Below, piece by piece: positions 43,727-53,506 of a DNA stretch of 64,000 bases. The notes under the pieces were generated by a model. It made no database searches, was not told the DNA's origin, and worked only from the letters and a program-made list of their open reading frames with translations. Position numbers and translations under genes: made by a program. Numbering within the stretch: the first letter of the stretch is position 1; each line of letters begins with the position of its first letter. Origin of the DNA: Bradyrhizobium sp. CB2312 (GTDB taxonomy: Bacteria > Pseudomonadota > Alphaproteobacteria > Rhizobiales > Xanthobacteraceae); assembly GCF_029714425.1 (NCBI RefSeq), contig NZ_CP121668.1, positions 620,001 to 684,000 on the forward strand, given 5' to 3'.

Positions 43727-45058
43727 TCACGCCACGTGCTCCTCTGCCGGCGCGTCCGTATGCGGCGGCACCGGCATCGGCACGGTGACATACTCTTTCG
43801 GCAGGTTCACCGGCCGGTAGTCCGGCTCCGCCGCCATCCGCTTCAACACGCTCTCATGCACATGCGCGCCCTCGGGGATGAGGCGCGGCTCGCAATCGGG
43901 GATGTAGAAGCCGAGCACCACCGTCCTGTCAGGCCATTCCTTGTACTTCGCGCGCTTCGGTAAGTACTCCAGCACGCGCCAGGCCGCATTCATCGAATTG
44001 TGCAGTTCGCCCGTCTTGCCGGCATAGGCCGGCGCGACGTATTGGAACGGCGAGTTCTTGCGCTGGATGCCCCAGGCGAGTTGGTTCACGGTGCGCGGGT
44101 TGAACTTCAGCCCGGCCTTTTCCGCCTCCGCGATCATCCAGATCAGCGGATATTTGGACTCGCCGCTCTCGGCCTCCGCATAGCCGCCGCCGACGTCGCA
44201 ATGCACGCCGGCGAACCACACCTGCAAAATGTCCTGCGGCACCTTCTTCTCGTCCGGCACGTAGCGGTTGCTCCAGAAGTCCTGCGGCTCGACATATTTG
44301 TTGAGGCGGAACATGCGCCGCCGCTCGTCGATCGCGATCGCCTGGCGGAAGATGTTGACGCTCGGATTGCGCCGCGTGAAGGCGAGTTCCTCCAGGCTGA
44401 ACACGAAGAAGAGATTGTCGCGCCGCGGCACGATCACGCTCGCCACCGTGTCCCAGACGCCGATGAAGTGGATGGTCGGCCAGCGCGTCGAGGTGATGCG
44501 CGCGAACTGCGCGGCGAGGTCGAATTTGCCCTGCGGCAGCGGTCCCTGATCGTCCACCGCGACATCGCGGAGGTCCTCGACCTCGTTGCCGCGCCCGGTG
44601 CCGGAATATTGCTTGTAGGCGACCATGCCGCTTCCTGCGAGGTTCGCCTGCTCCGGCGAGATCAGGCCGATTTTATGAATGAGCCCCGCCAGCACCCGCA
44701 CCGTATAGGCCCCGCGCGAGAAGCCGAACAGGTAGATGTGGTCGCCGGGCGCGTAGTGCTCGATCAGGAAGCAATAGGCCGAGAGCACGTTGTCATCGAG
44801 CCCGTAGCCGGTGGCGAGCCCCAGCACCAGATTGATGTTGGCCTTCCAGCGGTGCCACGTCGTCGGTTCCGTCACCGTGCCGACCCCGGGATCGTAAAAC
44901 ACCATCTGCCGCGGCTGCGTCTTGTCGGTCTTGCGCAGGCAGCGATAGAGCTTCAGGACGTTGGAGATGTTCTCCGAAATCTCGTTGCCGGTGCCGTCAC
45001 AGCAGATGACGAGGTTTTTCGAGCCGGGTTTGCGGTCGGTGTCGTGCGCGTGCTCCAC
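43727..45058 (-). CDS. DUF2235 (Tle1-type phospholipase/alpha-beta hydrolase) family protein
   Basis: A 443-residue protein. The N-terminus KNLVICCDGTGNEISE is the DUF2235 hallmark, and GFSRGAYTVR near residue 120 is the nucleophile elbow. HFIGVWDTVASV and the late HCDVGGGYAE contribute candidate acid and His positions. The family includes the type VI secretion phospholipase Tle1, but no vgrG, PAAR or immunity gene is close, so an internal role is as likely. A second, broken copy of its first 65 codons and leader is found at 48066-48294. Confidence 0.87.
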   Translation of the reverse strand: MEHAHDTDRKPGSKNLVICCDGTGNEISENISNVLKLYRCLRKTDKTQPRQMVFYDPGVGTVTEPTTWHRWKANINLVLGLATGYGLDDNVLSAYCFLIEHYAPGDHIYLFGFSRGAYTVRVLAGLIHKIGLISPEQANLAGSGMVAYKQYSGTGRGNEVEDLRDVAVDDQGPLPQGKFDLAAQFARITSTRWPTIHFIGVWDTVASVIVPRRDNLFFVFSLEELAFTRRNPSVNIFRQAIAIDERRRMFRLNKYVEPQDFWSNRYVPDEKKVPQDILQVWFAGVHCDVGGGYAEAESGESKYPLIWMIAEAEKAGLKFNPRTVNQLAWGIQRKNSPFQYVAPAYAGKTGELHNSMNAAWRVLEYLPKRAKYKEWPDRTVVLGFYIPDCEPRLIPEGAHVHESVLKRMAAEPDYRPVNLPKEYVTVPMPVPPHTDAPAEEHVA

Positions 45059-46060: not shown

Positions 46061-47320
46061 TCAGTTGGCGGCGCGGCGCAGGAAGGCGGGGATGTCGAGA
46101 ATGCTTTCGTCGGCCATATTGCGCGGGGATGATCGGCCGTAGGGATCGAGCGATTGCTGAGCCGCCTGGCGCGCATAGTCCGGATTCGGCCTTGCCGGTG
46201 GCCCCACGGGGTTATGCGGCTGCGGGCGGAGCGGCGGGCTTTCCACCTGCGGCAGGGTCGCACTGCGCTCGATGCGATCGGCGATGCGGCGGCTGTCGTT
46301 GCGCAGCCGGCCGGCAAGCTGCGTGAGCGCGGTTTCCACCGCGGGCGCCTGCTGCGCCGGGTCGACATTGTCGATCCCGGTCGCCACCACCGAGACGCGG
46401 ACGATGCCTTCGAGGCTTTCATCGAACGAGGCGCCGACGATGATGTTGGCGTCCGGATCGGCCTCGTCGCGAATCCGGGTGGCGGCTTCGTCGACCTCGT
46501 ACAGCATGAGATCCTTGCCGCCGGTGATGGAGATGATGAGGCCGCTGGCGCGCTTGATCGAGGGGTTCTCGATCAATGGATTGGAGATGGCCGCCACGGC
46601 GGCCGCGAGCACGCGTTTCTCGCCGGACGCCTCGCCCCGTCCCATCATGGCCTTGCCCTTCTCGCGCATCACGGAGAGAACGTCGGCGAAATCGAGATTG
46701 ATCAGGCCTTCCTTGACGATGAGGTCGCTGATGCAGGCCACGCCCGAATAGAGCACCTGGTCGGCAAGGGCAAAGGCATCGGCGAACGTGGTCTTCGCGC
46801 TGGCGACGCGGAACAGATTCTGGTTCGGGATGATCAGGAGGGTGTCGACCGTCTTCAGCAGTTCCTCGATGCCGGCTTCGGCAAAGCGCATGCGGCGCTG
46901 GCCCTCGAAGTAGAACGGCTTGGTGACGACGCCGATGGTGAGGATGCCGAGCTCGCGCGCGGTCCTGGCGATGATCGGTGCAGCCCCGGTACCGGTGCCG
47001 CCGCCCATGCCGGCCGTCACGAACACCATGTGCGCGCCGGTCAGATGCTCGCGGATCGTATCGATGACCTCCTCGGCTGCGGCGCGTCCGAGTTCGGGCT
47101 GCGAGCCGGCGCCGAGGCCTGCGGTGACGTTGGTGCCGAGCTGGATCAGGCGCGTCGCCTTCGACATGGCAAGCGCCTGCGCGTCGGTATTGGCGACGAC
47201 GAACTCGACCCCTTGCAGCCCGGCCGTGATCATGTTGTTGACGGCGTTGCCGCCGGCGCCGCCGACGCCGAACACGACGATGCGGGCTTTCATCTCGCGG
47301 ATGTCGGTGATGCCAGTCAT
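46061..47320 (-). CDS. ftsZ: FtsZ-family cell division GTPase, solitary copy
   Basis: A 419-residue tubulin-like GTPase. The G-box GGGTGTG is at 106-112, the synergy (T7) loop NLDFADV at 208-214, and the N-terminal [13 protein letters not shown] is standard, so polymerisation and GTP hydrolysis look intact. The C-terminal tail ends [11 protein letters not shown], matching the alphaproteobacterial FtsA-binding peptide. It is shorter than the roughly 600-residue FtsZ of the dcw cluster in this group, and no ftsQ, ftsA or mur gene is nearby, so it is probably a second FtsZ. Start ATG 47320; the frame is open upstream by chance. Confidence 0.92.
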
Positions 47321-47370
47321 TCTGTCCTCGCGGTTGCTCCGGCGGCCGGGAATGGGGAAAGGTTCAAGTG

Positions 47371-47940
47371 CTACCTGCGCGCCGCGCGGTCTGCTTGCAC
47401 GATCGAAGCGGCCAGATGTCCCAATCGATGCGCGGCCTGTCCCGCGATCCCGCCGCCAGGGCGGCGACCGGTCCGTAACTCCGCCACTTCGTCTTCCAGT
47501 CGTGCCGCCCACGCATTGGCTGCCGCCGTCTCGGCCGCCGCCTGCATCAGCTCGGCGGCCAGCCGATCGGCGCGCTCACGCTCGCGCTCGAACACGGCCC
47601 TGTAGGCGGTTGCGACGTCTTCGAGCCGCGCGACCTCCGCCTTGAGGGCCTCGATCTCCATAGCGTTTTCGAGCGAAGTGGATGCCGGTTCGCGCAAGGA
47701 AAACGCGTCTGGCTCCAACGCCTCGATCTTCGCCGTGGCGGCATCGATATGGCCCACCTCGCGGGCACGTCGCGGGCGGGGCGTGTAGCGAAGCTCGGAC
47801 AAATCAACGCTGATCAGGGCCTTGCCGTCATCCGACTGCGAGCGCGGCCACCGGCGGCGTCGCGCCAGCGAACGCGCGGCCTCGCGCGAGATCTTGAGGT
47901 GGGCACCCAGATCGGCATACGTCAACAACGCAACGCACAT
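47371..47940 (-). CDS. HTH and coiled-coil protein, KfrA-like in layout
   Basis: A 189-residue protein starting at ATG 47940 behind GGAGAAG. Residues 5-32 look like a helix-turn-helix ([20 protein letters not shown]) followed by basic RRRRWPR. The rest is a long Ala/Glu/Arg coiled coil (about 65-165) with a basic C-terminal helix. This layout recalls KfrA-like DNA-binding filament proteins; sequence identity was not established. It lies 50 nt upstream of ftsZ on the same strand, so cotranscription and a role with this FtsZ are possible. Residues of about 78-93 are encoded by a dispersed 48-nt repeat. Confidence 0.75.
47662..47710. repeat. Family H dispersed repeat inside a coding region
   Basis: AGCGTTTTCGAGCGAAGTGG and CGCAAGGAAAACGCGTC match the intergenic copy at 27856-27903 almost base for base. 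Read on the minus strand it encodes [16 protein letters not shown] within the coiled coil of the HTH protein, flanked on both sides by IEAL. Its unit length is a multiple of three, so the frame is kept. Confidence 0.8.
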
Positions 47941-48065
47941 CGGCACTTCTCCTGGAGCGAGCCGGGAAGGCATTTCGAGCTAATGATGGCTGGACGGTTA
48001 CAGCAGGCTAGGCTGCGTTGGTTAACGGACGGTTAACGGGCGCGCAGTGGTGTTTACGGGTGCCC

Positions 48066-48294
48066 GTCACCGTGCCGACCCCGGGATCGCAGAACTCCAT
48101 CTGACGCGGCTGCGTCCTGCCGGTCCTGCGCAGGCAGCGATAGAGCTTCAGGACGTTGGAGATGTTTTCCGAGATCTCGTTGCCGGTGCCGTCACAGCAG
48201 ATGATGAGGTTTTTCGGCTCGGCCGTGCGGTCGGAACCGTGCGCGTGCTCCCGGTATACCCCTCGGATGATGCTACCGGGCGAGTATAGCGGAA
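48066..48294 (-). pseudogene. Broken duplicate of the DUF2235 5' end and leader
   Basis: The minus-strand translation from about 48265 contains PKNLIICCDGTGNEISENIS and on to DPGVGTVT, matching residues 13-62 of the intact DUF2235 protein at 43727-45058 with few changes. Similarity at DNA level also covers its upstream leader (compare 48270-48294 with 45070-45100) and stops abruptly after GTVT at about 48066. No downstream part of the gene remains, so it is a truncated duplicate. The copies are in the same orientation about 3.2 kb apart and bracket the coiled-coil, ftsZ and HTH genes. Confidence 0.85.
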
Positions 48295-48360
48295 AATGGG
48301 AGAGCATTGCCAATTTCATTAGCAAACGGCTGATTCAAATGAGAGAAGGCAGGCACGGAC

Positions 48361-49584
48361 TTACATAAGGGCTAGCTTAGTCGTTAGTGACAGTCGTCCA
48401 AGCTTGCGTGTTGCAATCGTCACCGAGTGGAGGAAGTTCGTCTTTGTCATGAGGTGAACAATCTCTGACTGCGCATCGTTCGCAGCGGCATGCTCCTCCT
48501 GCTTCTTCTCGATAAACGGCTCGTAGTCCTCTGGATAAACGCCATCTCGCCCCAAATAGAAGATTGCCTCAATTTCAGCTAGCTTGGCGCCAGAGATCTT
48601 TTCTTGCACCGTCGAAATAACTTCGCTCCGAACCTTTTGCTTTTCTTTCATCTGTTTGATCCACGCGCGGTCAATGAAGCTAGGCAACGCCGCTTCCCCT
48701 TGTTGCGCCTTCGGATGGATTCGCCTCCACTGCTCAACTATCCAAAGAATCTCGTCGTCAGTGAGGTGAAGTAACTTGGTTTCCATTCCGAGGATGGCTT
48801 TAGTCTCACGCGCAGTCTGGATAACGTTCAAAGCTTCGCAGAATTGTCGGTTGGATAAATTAAATCGCTTGATCACCACGGCTTTCTGTGTGTCGAACAA
48901 GCTGGTGGACCAAGATTCTCTTCTCGGCATTAGCTGCGCAATTGTCACGAGGTCGCGCCGCGAACAGCGATTTGTGAAAAGGCCACTGTGACGTTCGTCG
49001 ACGAAGGAAACAATGCGGTTCTTCAAGACCTCAATAATTTCCGACAGCTCGACGAGACTTGCCTGGATGATTTCAAGGTTTGCAAGTGAGTAAGATGAGA
49101 GGCTTGGATCGCTGAACTGATTTAGATGATATCGAAGTTCTTGGCCGTCTCGATCGATCCGCGAGAGGCTATCGATAAAGGGCTTTAGCTCAGAGAGCTT
49201 TCTTGAGATGACTTCGTCCCCGATTGCTGCACGGTCAAGTCTTTCCCAGTATTCGCGGATGTTGTGCGAGGGACGCCCTGCCGGCTTTTGGAGCAATTCA
49301 GCCTTTTCGAGATGACCCGTTGAAAATTTCAGCGCTAGTTCGAGGGCGTGCCGAGCAGTGTACAGAATGGGCAGAACTAGCGTATCGCGCTTCGCGAACA
49401 GCTTTTGCTCTATGACGAGACGCGAAAGTTGGAGAGCGGCATCGATGTAGCCGTCTAGATAATTCTCCTCGTCGCCCTGTTCGCCTATGCAAGCGTTCCA
49501 GGTCGGGTCAGTGTGCCGCTTAAAGAAAGGATCACCCGCGTACGGGTCCAAGTCCGCGGCTTCGCCTACTTCAGGTGTGGTCAT
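48361..49584 (-). CDS. Protein of unknown function, last gene of the ABC-3C-like operon
   Basis: A 407-residue protein starting at ATG 49584, which overlaps the ATPase stop by 4 nt (ATGA), so it is coupled to the Rad50-like gene. The N-terminal part has LVLPILYTARHALELALK and, some 25 residues on, SHNIREYWERL. Pairs of this kind occur in helical HEPN-like proteins, but a clear R-x4-6-H nuclease motif was not found, so the link is weak. The middle has LTDDEILWIVEQWRRI; the rest is helical and charged. Base composition is visibly lower in GC than the flanks, with many A/T third positions. It may be an effector or regulator of the neighbouring system. Confidence 0.7.
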   Translation of the reverse strand: MTTPEVGEAADLDPYAGDPFFKRHTDPTWNACIGEQGDEENYLDGYIDAALQLSRLVIEQKLFAKRDTLVLPILYTARHALELALKFSTGHLEKAELLQKPAGRPSHNIREYWERLDRAAIGDEVISRKLSELKPFIDSLSRIDRDGQELRYHLNQFSDPSLSSYSLANLEIIQASLVELSEIIEVLKNRIVSFVDERHSGLFTNRCSRRDLVTIAQLMPRRESWSTSLFDTQKAVVIKRFNLSNRQFCEALNVIQTARETKAILGMETKLLHLTDDEILWIVEQWRRIHPKAQQGEAALPSFIDRAWIKQMKEKQKVRSEVISTVQEKISGAKLAEIEAIFYLGRDGVYPEDYEPFIEKKQEEHAAANDAQSEIVHLMTKTNFLHSVTIATRKLGRLSLTTKLALM

Positions 49585-51614
49585 GACGATGGAGAATGGA
49601 GTGGTTTGATCAGATAGCCGGGAAAGATAAGCGCTTCGCAATCCAAGCCTGCGATGATGCCTTTCAATACCGTTAGATCCTCACTCGTCGAAAAGATGAC
49701 CTGTTGCCCTCGTGCTTTTGCGGACGAAGCCCGTTCAAGAAGCTTTTGGAAGCTAACTCTTGCGGAGGATTGTTGCCTTGGTTCGTCAAATACAAGTAGG
49801 TCGGAATGATTTGTTTTCTCCAAACTGGCGAGCTCAAGTAGGCCTAGTTGATAGGCCCATTTAAGTCGTATCGCATCGCTCGCGGACGTTTCAAATCCGA
49901 TCTCGAAGCCTTCCTTTTGCGGTCGGTAGCTGTCGTCAGAGATGCTAACCTCGTCAGGATCAAATGTGCTAAATCCAAATTGTTTTGTCTGCTCTCGCAC
50001 GATTCGAGTTAGCCGAGACAGTTTGATACTGTCGGTCTGACTAAGTTTTTCGCGTGGCAGAGATGCCTGTTCGGCCAGCAACCTTGCATATTCTTGAGAA
50101 ATTGCTTTGAGTCGATCGATCATATTTTGGAAGGCCGTTTCCATTTCCTCTAGCTCGCGGAGGCGACCCTCCGTGCGGATGCGCTCTTCTATGGCTACAA
50201 GTGATGGCGAGGTGTTAGGTGACACCAAATCAGTTCGAAGTGAGCGGATGCGGGCGTAGAGCTCAGTCAACTCTTTGTCTGATACCTCAATGTCCCGATT
50301 CAATGCGATAACGGCTTCTTGCTCTCGAGCAAGAATATCTCTGAACATTCGAAGCTCAGAACGGAGATATTCGATATTGTCTTCAATGGGCATCACCGCA
50401 GAGAGTGCCTCTTGTCTTAGCAGGGTGTCGATCAATGCCTGCTCGCAAGTGGGGCAGTGGTCGGGAGTGATTTCAACTAAGCTGCCGGAAAAGCGCTGAA
50501 GCTTCTGAACATCGAGATTCTTCTGCAGGTCGTCTTCGAGAGATTTTATTCGACGGGCCAAGGAGGAGATGTCTGCATCTTTGAGCTGTTTGGCGCTGTA
50601 GGCCGAAAGTCTTATAGCGTTTAGATCATCTGCTCTTTGACTCGCCTGGCCCAGTTCTTCGGCCAACTTGTCCGCCGAAGTTCCTACCTCCGGAACGGAG
50701 GCATTGCTCAGCGCCGCTGCACGGGCCCTCAGTTGGGACATGAGAATGTTCAGTGGTAGCCATTCTGTAGTTTCGGCGATTAGTACATGGGCTTGGTTCA
50801 ATTCATCGGGAATTGAGGTCTGCTTAGGAGGAAGCGCTTCAATTCTCCCGCCGCCGCGACGAACGCTTCTTTCTGCCTCTTCTAGACGAGCTCGCCATTC
50901 GTGCGCGTTAGCGGTGAGCTGCTCCGCGAGTTGCTGACGGCGAAGTTCGAGACGATAGACGTCAAGATCCATAATGAACTCGACTGCTCGCTTGTGAACT
51001 TCGCGGATACGCAAATATGTAGGAATTGCTGCCGGTATAGACGACCAACCTATCTTTTGTTCGACCCAAAACAGGGGGAAAATTGTTTCCAAGTACAATT
51101 TGCCATCGGGCGCGTCATATCGCTTAACTGTCGGAAGCTCCCATCCTATGAAATTTTCTAGGAAATGATGAAACCCATCCTCCCGCGAGGCCGCGCCGGG
51201 ATCACTAACGAAGAAGTTCCTTCGGAGCGCCTTCGCATTCGAATTCGTCAATGTAGGACCAAAATCAACCGTTACTAGGCGGTTGTCGCGTTGAGATTTT
51301 ACCGGGCGGTAAACTGTAATTATCTGGCCCGCCCCGTTCTCGATTTCGAGTGCAACTGTGGATTCGAGGATAGTATGTCGTTTTTTGTCGTCATCCTCGA
51401 CGTAGTTGGTCATCGCATGGGGCAAGGGTATTTCGCGTCGAGGGCTAAGCATTCGCTCCATGCCCAGGACGTAAAGCATCGCTTGCATGCACGTTGATTT
51501 GCCCTTGGTGTTGTCGGCCCAGATCACTGTTAATCCATCGCCAAAAGCAAGATCGGCACCGTATGGGCCGGCCGAGGTTTCGGCACGTAGCCGTAGGTGT
51601 CTGAGGCGCAGCAT
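49581..51614 (-). CDS. Rad50/SMC-like ATPase of an ABC-three-component-like system
   Basis: A 677-residue ATPase. The N-terminus carries a Walker A variant, ADNTKGKST, where the usual first Gly is Ala. About 330 residues of coiled coil with a central CPTC zinc-hook-like turn (DHCPTCEQAL) follow. The C-terminal lobe has FETSASDAIRLKWAYQLGLLELA in the signature position, Walker B DLLVFDEPRQQSS and a terminal FPGYLIKPLHS. This is the Rad50/AAA plan of ABC ATPases in conflict systems. The start ATG 51614 shares one base with the stop of the upstream gene (TGATG); a Met 8 codons earlier is possible. Expected partners are the two genes upstream. GC is clearly below that of the chromosome. Confidence 0.82.
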   Translation of the reverse strand: MLRLRHLRLRAETSAGPYGADLAFGDGLTVIWADNTKGKSTCMQAMLYVLGMERMLSPRREIPLPHAMTNYVEDDDKKRHTILESTVALEIENGAGQIITVYRPVKSQRDNRLVTVDFGPTLTNSNAKALRRNFFVSDPGAASREDGFHHFLENFIGWELPTVKRYDAPDGKLYLETIFPLFWVEQKIGWSSIPAAIPTYLRIREVHKRAVEFIMDLDVYRLELRRQQLAEQLTANAHEWRARLEEAERSVRRGGGRIEALPPKQTSIPDELNQAHVLIAETTEWLPLNILMSQLRARAAALSNASVPEVGTSADKLAEELGQASQRADDLNAIRLSAYSAKQLKDADISSLARRIKSLEDDLQKNLDVQKLQRFSGSLVEITPDHCPTCEQALIDTLLRQEALSAVMPIEDNIEYLRSELRMFRDILAREQEAVIALNRDIEVSDKELTELYARIRSLRTDLVSPNTSPSLVAIEERIRTEGRLRELEEMETAFQNMIDRLKAISQEYARLLAEQASLPREKLSQTDSIKLSRLTRIVREQTKQFGFSTFDPDEVSISDDSYRPQKEGFEIGFETSASDAIRLKWAYQLGLLELASLEKTNHSDLLVFDEPRQQSSARVSFQKLLERASSAKARGQQVIFSTSEDLTVLKGIIAGLDCEALIFPGYLIKPLHSPSS

Positions 51615-52096
51615 CAGAGCAGATCCTCCATTCGCCAAATTCTTCGGAGCAAGGCGTCTGTAACTTTTGAGGCGACCTCATTCAGGAAAACACTCTCTTC
51701 CGCGAGCGCGCCGCTCTTTCTAATTTCGTCAGTAACCTCCACGCCTCTGTTGGTCAGTGAGACGATCTTGCCCTTGTCCACTGAAACGAGACCAAGCGCA
51801 TACGCGTACGAAATTGCTCTATTCAACCAAGGCTCCACTCGGACTGAGATGTCCGATGGACGAAGCTCCGCACGAAGTAGCGCTCTTACATCGTCACGCC
51901 CCTCGGCTATTCGCACGGAATGCGCCAAGAACTGAAGCTTCTGGAAACTCGCTTTTTTCTCTCGGCTGTAGAGCAGGCTTAACAGGAGTACGGAGATGCC
52001 CCAAGACATCCTTAGGTCGCCAGCGATCGGCTCCGGTCTGGAGTTGAATGAGAACGGAGCGTCGAACAGCTTTCTTAATTGGGTCTCAAAAGGCAT
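51614..52096 (-). CDS. Small winged-helix-like protein, candidate 'middle component' of an ABC-3C system
   Basis: A 160-residue protein between the endonuclease-like gene and the ATPase gene. It is mostly helical, with a block SWGISVLLLSLLYSREKKAS and a later wing-like VSVDKGKIVSLTNRGVEVTDEI that suggests a winged helix. Its size, position and character fit the middle component of ABC-three-component systems, thought to link ATPase and effector; this is inference from architecture. The gap to the upstream gene is 4 nt and the overlap with the ATPase start is 1 nt. Confidence 0.7.
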   Translation of the reverse strand: MPFETQLRKLFDAPFSFNSRPEPIAGDLRMSWGISVLLLSLLYSREKKASFQKLQFLAHSVRIAEGRDDVRALLRAELRPSDISVRVEPWLNRAISYAYALGLVSVDKGKIVSLTNRGVEVTDEIRKSGALAEESVFLNEVASKVTDALLRRIWRMEDLL

Positions 52097-52100
52097 CGCG

Positions 52101-53006
52101 CTAGAAGTCCAAAGGGCACCGCATTATCCACTCGGAGATCGTCCCTAAGGCGATATCCTGAACGAGATCATTCGAAAGGTTCGGCGCCGCAGTCGCGATG
52201 GAACTGATCAAGCTATCGATTTCGGTATTGAGGATCGCGGTTGGCGTCGGGCCACCCCTCGGCCCTGCAAAGCCCAACCTTTTAGCTTGGTTCGCCACTG
52301 CGGAGATAATTTGTTCATGTAAATCTGGCGAGCTAGAACGTAGCGCATCCAACACGGAACGGCCTTGAAGAAATGATTTTGCAGCTTCCGAAACGGCGTC
52401 CTGGACTCCCTTAGAGCCCGCTCGTTTGGCTAGCTTGTGCGTTGCGTTGGCGACAAGGTCCGCCGATCCTGCTTGCCAGTGATTCAATTCCTCTGGGGTT
52501 GGAGGCGGAACGTTCAAGCGTATTGTATGCAGCGCGATCATGCCTGCGGCGACGGCCTTGGTCGCAAACGAGTCCCGGTCATGAATGCCGACTTCAAAGT
52601 CGGCATCGAGATGGGCGCAGCTTAGCTTTCGAAGCTCGGTAGTTTTCTTTGCACAGTGAAGGTTGACTTCTCTGCTGTCGTGCAAAGGTGCCAAGAGAAT
52701 CCAGTGCTTGATTTTGTTGCCTAGAAATAACTTTGAAATGTCCGTCGAGTTCGAGACCAACTTTCCCGTATCGATTGTGATCTTCGTCTTCTGCCGATCC
52801 GCCCGAGTTGCAATGTCGATAGGCTCTCGAACTGCATAGCATTGATAAGCAACTAGCTCGGATATGCAGATGTAGTCGATGCCGAGATCCCCTTTATGAG
52901 CAGCAGGGATCTTATGCACGTTGAGCGGACCGTGCCTGCTCTGCAACAGGCCCAGCGCAAACGTTTCCCAGTCGTCCGGATTCCAAACTTGAACCGCATC
53001 CGACAC
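52101..53006 (-). CDS. Restriction-endonuclease-like protein, first gene of the ABC-3C-like operon
   Basis: A 301-residue protein starting at GTG 53006 because GGAGGAGG precedes it by five nt; an ATG at 53036 lacks such a site. The N-terminal third has WETFALGLLQSRHGPLN, then HKGDLGIDYICIS and YQCYAV. The GD-x-GID / QxY pattern resembles the PD-(D/E)xK nuclease core in which the last Lys is replaced. A later DRQKTKITIDTGK fits a partner-binding strand. The C-terminal half is helical. Taken with its neighbours it is the probable effector of the system. No close family name could be assigned with confidence. Confidence 0.7.
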   Translation of the reverse strand: MSDAVQVWNPDDWETFALGLLQSRHGPLNVHKIPAAHKGDLGIDYICISELVAYQCYAVREPIDIATRADRQKTKITIDTGKLVSNSTDISKLFLGNKIKHWILLAPLHDSREVNLHCAKKTTELRKLSCAHLDADFEVGIHDRDSFATKAVAAGMIALHTIRLNVPPPTPEELNHWQAGSADLVANATHKLAKRAGSKGVQDAVSEAAKSFLQGRSVLDALRSSSPDLHEQIISAVANQAKRLGFAGPRGGPTPTAILNTEIDSLISSIATAAPNLSNDLVQDIALGTISEWIMRCPLDF

Positions 53007-53090
53007 GCGGCCCTCCTCCCCCACGTCATCAAACATTTACATGATTGGAAGAGTGGTACAACCCAGCCGAGTGGCGCAATCCTTTAGTCG

Positions 53091-53128
53091 CAAAAAAACA
53101 AAAACGGCCGGATCTTTCGATCCGGCCG
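53091..53128 (-). terminator. Intrinsic terminator downstream of rpmB
   Basis: CGGCCGGATC and GATCCGGCCG make a perfect 10-bp stem with a 4-nt loop (53105-53128). On the minus strand it is followed by TTTTTGTTTTTTT (53091-53104). It therefore ends minus-strand transcription from rpmB and insulates it from the operon beginning about 55-85 nt further on. Confidence 0.9.
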
Positions 53129-53197
53129 CAATGCAAAACTCGACTGGCTAAGCCTCCGCCACGCGACGCAACTTAGCCCCCGCCCTGTCTGAATTCC

Positions 53198-53506
53198 TTA
53201 GCTCGCCTTCTTCGCCGGCGCGGTGTCGCCGACCTTCTTCTGGATGGCGCGCTTCAGCTCCAGGGCGCGCGGCGACAGGGCGTCGGCATTGGCCTTGAGC
53301 AGGAAGGCGTCGAGGCCGCCATTGTGGTCGACGCTCTTCACCGCGTTGGTGGAGACGCGCAGGCGCACGTTGCGCTCCAGGGCTTCCGAGATGAACGTCA
53401 CGTTGACGAGGTTCGGCAGGAAGCGGCGCTTGGTCTTGATGTTGGAGTGGCTGACCTTGTGGCCGACGAGGGGGCCCTTGGCCGTCAGTTCGCAGCGGCG
53501 AGACAT
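53198..53506 (-). CDS. rpmB: 50S ribosomal protein L28
   Basis: A 102-residue large-subunit protein. It begins [21 protein letters not shown], has the [17 protein letters not shown] core and [22 protein letters not shown], the alphaproteobacterial L28 form. It lacks zinc-binding cysteine pairs. The ATG at 53506 is the family start; an upstream ATG adds nine unrelated residues. It has its own promoter and terminator, so it is a single transcription unit. Confidence 0.96.

Follow-up and report, generated by a model that had tools for sequence, protein, structure and literature searches.

A predicted type II Lamassu operon with an overlapping HEPN-like fourth gene at a hypervariable site behind rpmB in Bradyrhizobium

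The Lamassu superfamily includes the ABC-three-component (ABC-3C) systems, for which LmuC is also named the middle component. LmuA combines an N-terminal effector domain with C-terminal domains that vary and possibly provide docking to the other parts, and LmuB generally carries a Glu to Gln exchange at Walker B (PMC10586767). LmuC marks Lamassu type II, and a cloned type II system was reported to protect against phage (PMC8565338). Here, a four-gene operon of Bradyrhizobium sp. CB2312 was analysed in a window of 64,000 nucleotides (NZ_CP121668.1, positions 620,001 to 684,000; the coordinates below count from the first letter of the window). The host genome is a single contig of 9.78 Mb. Four open reading frames (ORFs) lie head to tail on the minus strand between rpmB and a DUF2235 remnant. 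Judged from sequence, genes 1 to 3 almost certainly form a type II Lamassu/ABC-3C system, and what is new compared with the known Lamassu core is the coupled HEPN-like fourth gene together with the hypervariable site. The operon consists of the following genes:

52101..53006, minus strand: lmuA, predicted effector of 301 amino acids (GTG start) with a restriction-endonuclease-like (REase-like) N-terminal and a helical C-terminal domain.
51614..52096, minus strand: lmuC, middle component of 160 amino acids, PADLOC LmuC profile PDLC03871.
49581..51614, minus strand: lmuB, SMC/Rad50-like ATPase of 677 amino acids with the CPTC hook at residues 387-390 and the Walker B motif DEP at residues 610-612.
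48361..49584, minus strand: gene 4 (P4), 407 amino acids, modelled as all-helical, with an ATGA overlap with lmuB; a predicted HEPN-like domain spans residues ~38-194 and an uncharacterised helical domain residues ~205-407.

All three core proteins matched Lamassu profiles of PADLOC over most of their length, LmuA with 1.6e-28 (residues 12-305), LmuC with 4.7e-17 (residues 18-153) and LmuB with 7.1e-109 (PDLC03863, residues 9-653 of a 685-residue ORF). As ABC-3C belongs to the Lamassu superfamily (PMC10586767), these matches bear out the ABC-3C architecture that had been proposed in a preliminary description of this DNA. At the level of the sequence profile, they also firmly identify the 160-residue protein as the middle component; the label 'winged-helix-like' given to this protein had a weak Mrr_N match (E 0.13) as its sole basis. 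The Pfam scan gave no family for LmuA, none at the cut-off for LmuC and only a weak AAA_23 match for LmuB (1.2e-4, below the Pfam cut-off). Sequence searches against solved structures with LmuA, LmuC and LmuB, singly and as profiles, returned no Lamassu entry. The link of LmuA to solved Lamassu was reached by fold comparison only, in which the C-terminal domain, corresponding to the docking or oligomerisation part, aligned to a solved LmuA. The N-terminal part is REase-like and corresponds to the enzymatic domain found at this end of Lamassu/ABC-3C effectors.

Motifs of LmuB were compared in eleven aligned proteins. Walker A (NTxGKST), the stretch SASDxIR, presumably the signature region, and all four residues of the CPTC hook, to which the preliminary description had drawn attention in the Rad50-like ATPase, were invariant in 11/11. 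The same was true for Walker B, DEP, and a second look at 14 loci found D-E in all 12 that matched the search pattern (L093 and L098 did not match it). The exchange of Glu to Gln, general but not defining for Lamassu (PMC10586767), is therefore absent from the window family, and because the Glu is kept, its LmuB may have retained ATP hydrolysis. In other respects the core is closest to type II Lamassu/ABC-3C systems such as DdmABC of Vibrio cholerae. It shares the order effector, middle component, SMC-like ATPase, an LmuB near 650 amino acids with a CPxC hook, which is found in many but not all members, and an effector that joins an REase-like N-terminal part to a C-terminal domain aligning to solved LmuA. 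It differs in the fourth coupled gene and in the YQCY/YQCF motif of the LmuA N-terminal domain, while the effector of V. cholerae is of the Cap4 type (PMC10586767). The core is thus well supported as an ordinary case of a known kind of system, and anti-phage activity of the operon would be expected from its relatives.

Coordinates, strand and junctions of the four genes were confirmed as previously given. lmuA ends at 52101 and the ATG of lmuC lies at 52096 (+4 nt), lmuC ends at 51614 where the ATG of lmuB begins (-1 nt, an overlap of 1 nt), and lmuB ends at 49581 with the ATG of gene 4 at 49584 (-4 nt, ATGA). For lmuA, an in-frame ATG at 53036 would yield a form of 311 amino acids, which the residue numbering used here follows. 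The start is probably the GTG at 53006, since AGGAGG lies directly upstream and the 93% identical homologue P0121 begins there. The operon is indeed AT-richer than its surroundings, with a GC content of ~0.52 compared to ~0.65; values of 0.507-0.538 were obtained in the 1-kb bins of 48001-53000 and 0.60-0.70 in most other bins of the window.

Relatives of LmuB were found sporadically, in 3/391 genomes of the family, 5/397 of the order and 5/265 of the genus (own genome included in each case, one weak match in each of the latter two). In addition, 24 plasmid records matched LmuB and 48 matched gene 4, of which four each were examined, and IMG/VR contigs yielded one match for LmuB and one for gene 4. 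Thirteen Lamassu loci were examined (window, L002, L040, L041, L087-L093, L095, L108), with a covered flank of 1.5 kb for loci from the genome search and ~5 kb for plasmid and viral loci. L107 and L110 (genome G925) showed identities equal to L002, were taken as the same lineage and counted once. The locus counts exclude L094 and L109, where LmuB matched only weakly (E near 1e-3), as well as partial matches to gene 4. The order LmuA-LmuC-LmuB was kept in 13/13 loci, with LmuC between effector and ATPase throughout. The ATPase is thus regularly accompanied by LmuA and LmuC, two of the partners that the earlier description had assigned to it, and chance grouping of lmuA, lmuC and lmuB is no concern as the unit is conserved at other loci. 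LmuB carries a stop in L041 and L108, and LmuC is split in L108. Gene 4 was present at only two of the thirteen loci, the window and L002 from Bradyrhizobium yuanmingense; an integral fourth Lamassu subunit is not supported by this distribution.

LmuA homologues are also named from other Bradyrhizobium strains, for example P0144, P0158 and P0176. Close LmuACB sets were also seen outside chromosomes. L095, a viral contig of IMG/VR, holds a three-gene set with 49% LmuB identity. L087 and L088 are sets on Mesorhizobium and Agrobacterium Ti plasmids, and AbiE-type toxin-antitoxin genes adjoin both.

Between the window and L002, LmuA, LmuC and LmuB differ with a synonymous divergence (dS) of 0.89-0.96 at omega values of 0.07-0.11, namely, 0.105 for LmuA, 0.087 for LmuC and 0.074 for LmuB. 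All three are under purifying selection. The host genes at the same two loci gave a dS of 0.16 for rpmB and 0.27 for DUF2235. Because the cassettes diverge more than these host genes, they were probably acquired separately.

For gene 4, none of the three libraries searched gave a family match with E <0.05, and PADLOC gave none for the window protein even at E up to 1, but the protein search returned 402 homologues at E up to 0.001. The predicted structure is all-helical with a HEPN-like N-terminal domain. In the fold comparison, 7/16 top chains of the VIA table have HEPN in their title, and most of the others are HEPN proteins as well, in part according to the table of a survey. The fold lists against viral structures and the PDB mainly probe residues 37-202. 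Against viral structures, the best E was 0.6 with no usable match, and a phage HEPN protein appeared only at rank 44 (E 6.8). Gene 4 as a profile against solved structures gave no match, and neither did tblastn against phage genomes. A match to a HEPN sequence family was absent for the window protein and found for 1/56 homologues (0.0082). Among relatives of the N-terminal domain with ~200 amino acids, 2/5 matched PF05168 HEPN, the best with 2.1e-4 and 21.9 bits against a cut-off of 22.

R78, H79, E82, K86, D144 and R151 were kept in 56/56 gene 4 sequences and H107 in 55/56. E82 and K86 form an Ex3[KR] motif in helix 2, H107 lies in the insert between helices 2 and 3, and R151 is a later basic residue. 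This is the arrangement of the AbiV/AF0298 HEPN proteins (HEPN-T, PF05168), for which Ex3K and an alternative histidine were described, together with the helical domain and the late basic residue (PMC3710099). Gene 4 differs from them by a further helical C-terminal domain of ~200 amino acids, for which only weak DUF3775 matches were obtained (22/56 members, best 0.0018). ORFs with the N-terminal domain alone exist, mostly of ~200-230 amino acids, and therefore mark a domain boundary in gene 4. From the model, a HEPN-type protein is likely. An assignment as RNase by the classical motif was rejected. Only P0005, among the 120 matches listed, bears the name 'ribonuclease M5'. In L048:1450-3504, on a 6-kb contig, one open frame joins a HEPN-like domain to a part that by eye resembles leucyl-tRNA synthetase, which may reflect a gene fusion or faulty assembly.

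No report of a HEPN protein or a fourth gene in Lamassu was found among the titles and abstracts that searches of the open PMC literature listed. Lamassu systems with accessory nuclease-protease pairs resemble the operon in having taken in an extra gene. In these, the extra gene encodes an MBL-fold nuclease and typically lies upstream, and LmuA is fused to a protease (PMC12799240), while here the extra gene lies downstream and encodes a HEPN-like protein.

The genome collection returned 37 gene 4 loci, 35 of which contain a gene 4 ORF (L037 and L038, without one, were dropped; it is split in L029 and cut by the contig end in L027), giving 36 with the window. Within the genus, 18/265 genomes matched, seven near full length, ten via ~100-180 N-terminal residues and one via a C-terminal piece. 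In the sphingomonad loci L028, L030 and L031, gene 4 is followed directly by another gene on the same strand (around 9194), with a 4-nt overlap for a GTG start, or at a distance of at most 11 nt for a start at the next ATG. In L030 and L031 this gene encodes ~700 amino acids with a PD-(D/E)xK-like motif (EYDYDLLV...FLFECK); in L028 it is cut to 128 amino acids. A homologue of the ~700-residue gene with an ECK-type nuclease-like motif lies divergently near gene 4 in L004:5026-7152. Since another gene stands directly behind it in L028, L030 and L031, gene 4 resembles a module that can join up with different partners.

Near gene 4, at 33 loci without this Lamassu, 128 ORFs were scanned. They included four matches to phage integrase, three to resolvase and two to a TIR effector family at 1e-10, and one to GajA and two to GajB models of Gabija at 1e-20; methyltransferase matches occurred as well. 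This list is descriptive, has no random-gene control and shows 25 families of 90 and 85. Distant gene 4 homologues (26-29% identity) were also seen on Providencia, Acinetobacter and Klebsiella plasmids (L084, L085 and L086), the one on the Providencia plasmid directly after a recombinase gene.

The cassette lies directly behind the rpmB terminator, and this site is hypervariable in Bradyrhizobium-type genomes. The flanking features in the window are:

53198..53506, minus strand: rpmB (ribosomal protein L28), conserved left flank, Pfam Ribosomal_L28 7.4e-24 (scanned as a longer ORF from 53533).
53104..53129, minus strand: rpmB intrinsic terminator, left boundary of the variable region.
48008..48325, minus strand: DUF2235/Tle1-like N-terminal remnant, right flank, Pfam PF09994 2.4e-12 (profile positions 1-57 of 287).
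~43727-45058: full-length DUF2235 gene, ~3 kb beyond the remnant.

The rpmB search matched 58/60 genus genomes, 30 of which gave loci. The terminator pattern was present in 31/32 loci (the 30, L002 and L100). Median identity fell from 0.815, over the 100 bp that close with the terminator, to 0.36 from 10 nt beyond it, compared to 0.34 for shuffled sequences (120 sampled pairs, 30 loci). A DUF2235 gene or fragment follows in 10/10 and 18/20 extended sites. In the genus, LmuB matched strongly in four cases (window, G925/L002, G320/L100 and G875/L140), all of them at the rpmB site. Having been chosen for their Lamassu, these four were left out of the hotspot count, and 26 extended sites remain (in the range L097-L104 and L121-L140). 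Eighteen were scanned in part with 30 cargo ORFs (10, and 20 of 52 listed); L099, L101, L104, L126, L128, L135, L136 and L139 lie outside the scan.

Matches to PADLOC defence profiles were carried by 14/18 scanned sites and concern Lamassu, Gabija, Zorya, retron, IetAS, Dsr1 and others. The strongest were GajA (7e-285) with GajB (2e-253), IetS (5e-262) and the retron RT-Toprim I-C (3.1e-217). LmuA (1.7e-105) occurred with LmuB (6.8e-170), another site held LmuB (3.3e-163), and in L123 only the C-terminal half of LmuB was found (1.3e-83). A further LmuB match (2e-37) came with Pfam ABC-3C MC5 (3.8e-39) and CTD9 (2e-27). ZorA (5.8e-134) and Dsr1 (1e-99) were also detected. HamB in L132 (7e-31), MTase_II in L133 (1.4e-48), DndC in L102 (3.2e-68), GajA in L134 (3.4e-36) and PDC-M55A in L103 (1.9e-40) may be domain-level matches that name a gene and not a whole system. 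The cargo of L125, L129, L130 and L137, four of the 18 scanned sites, had no PADLOC match at 1e-15. For the root-nodule bacteria of the genus Bradyrhizobium, the rpmB-DUF2235 gap offers a fixed address at which to seek new defence systems. The defence hotspots of E. coli and Pseudomonas are reportedly islands with differing defence cargo as well; the site described here differs in running from the rpmB terminator to the DUF2235 gene in Bradyrhizobium-type genomes. An rpmB hotspot was not reported in the titles and abstracts that searches of the open PMC literature listed, and rpmB does not occur in PMC11476347.

Based on solved relatives and a review, LmuABC would sense abnormal foreign DNA and then release the predicted nuclease. 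LmuB and LmuC would hold LmuA inactive until DNA ends or hairpins set it free to assemble through its C-terminal domain and cut DNA. Infection by phages or plasmids would be stopped with or without survival of the host. Gene 4, according to its model and motifs, would be an AbiV-type HEPN protein (E82-x3-K86, H107, R151) acting on RNA by cleavage or binding. Translational coupling would tie its expression to that of Lamassu, to which it would add a second arm directed at RNA. Taken as a whole, this explanation is considered the best one and fairly probable, mostly on account of the core; the role of gene 4 as a second arm is put forward tentatively and is slightly less probable than that of an independent gene. 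The best reading of gene 4 itself is a mobile HEPN-type module added to Lamassu. The full combination, in which DNA sensing by LmuB and LmuC frees a DNA-cutting LmuA alongside a coupled HEPN RNase that belongs to a new family and, being mobile, is also paired with a large nuclease-motif gene, in an undescribed post-rpmB hotspot of Bradyrhizobium, is rather doubtful in all its parts at once. Should gene 4 act with Lamassu, the operon would show a DNA-sensing system gaining an RNA-directed arm and would offer a way into a HEPN-like family of several hundred members.

Several observations weigh against such a second arm. This Lamassu adjoins gene 4 in 2/36 loci and is missing from the other 34, and LmuACB stands without gene 4 in 11/13 loci within the flanks covered, so that the earlier view of the fourth gene as an extension of the system is not supported by the distribution. 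Compared between the window and L002, gene 4 has diverged more at synonymous sites (pS 0.76) than LmuABC (0.52-0.54); the difference of 0.23 was reached in 0/2000 permutations, and gene 4 therefore had a history unlike that of LmuABC. Lastly, the HEPN RNase motif Rx4-6H is not conserved, the best R..H column pair being present in 8/56 rows. The counts and the divergence would be expected if gene 4 were an independent defence or toxin gene parked behind Lamassu, with shared expression and no shared mechanism. This explanation has a considerable probability, though short of even. It accounts less well for the ATGA overlap, which is the same in both cassettes, and for the four closest gene 4 sequences (P0001-P0004, P0004 being the L002 protein), which form one clade with a support of 1.0; this fits an old pairing, with gene context known only for P0001 and P0004. 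The missing Rx4-6H would rather suit a non-catalytic regulator that restrains Lamassu or tunes its trigger, since HEPN domains without this motif are thought to work as RNA-binding domains (PMC3710099), and gene 4 is the last gene of the operon, coupled to that of the ATPase. Such a regulator is unlikely, as the seven conserved residues resemble an active or ligand site and at most gene 4 loci there is no Lamassu of this family on which it could act. A chromosome-repair module of a Rad50-like ATPase and a nuclease could be read from the Rad50/SMC-like LmuB with its weak AAA_23 match and zinc-hook motif. It is highly improbable in view of the extensive Lamassu profile matches of all three proteins, the sporadic distribution in the family and order, the low GC content and the defence-profile genes that other genomes carry at the same site.

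A different ABC-3C system was observed at the hotspot in L098:4825-8509, comprising a hydrolase with CTD9, an MC5 middle component and an LmuB-like ATPase. In L097, a DUF2235 remnant with nearly the same end (VTGTRKHH) as in the window lies beside other cargo, which suggests that the remnant is older than the cargo. In the window, an ftsZ-like gene, named by eye, is located at 46061-47512 between the remnant and the full-length DUF2235 copy. L097 has the same gene order, as does L098 apart from the missing remnant.

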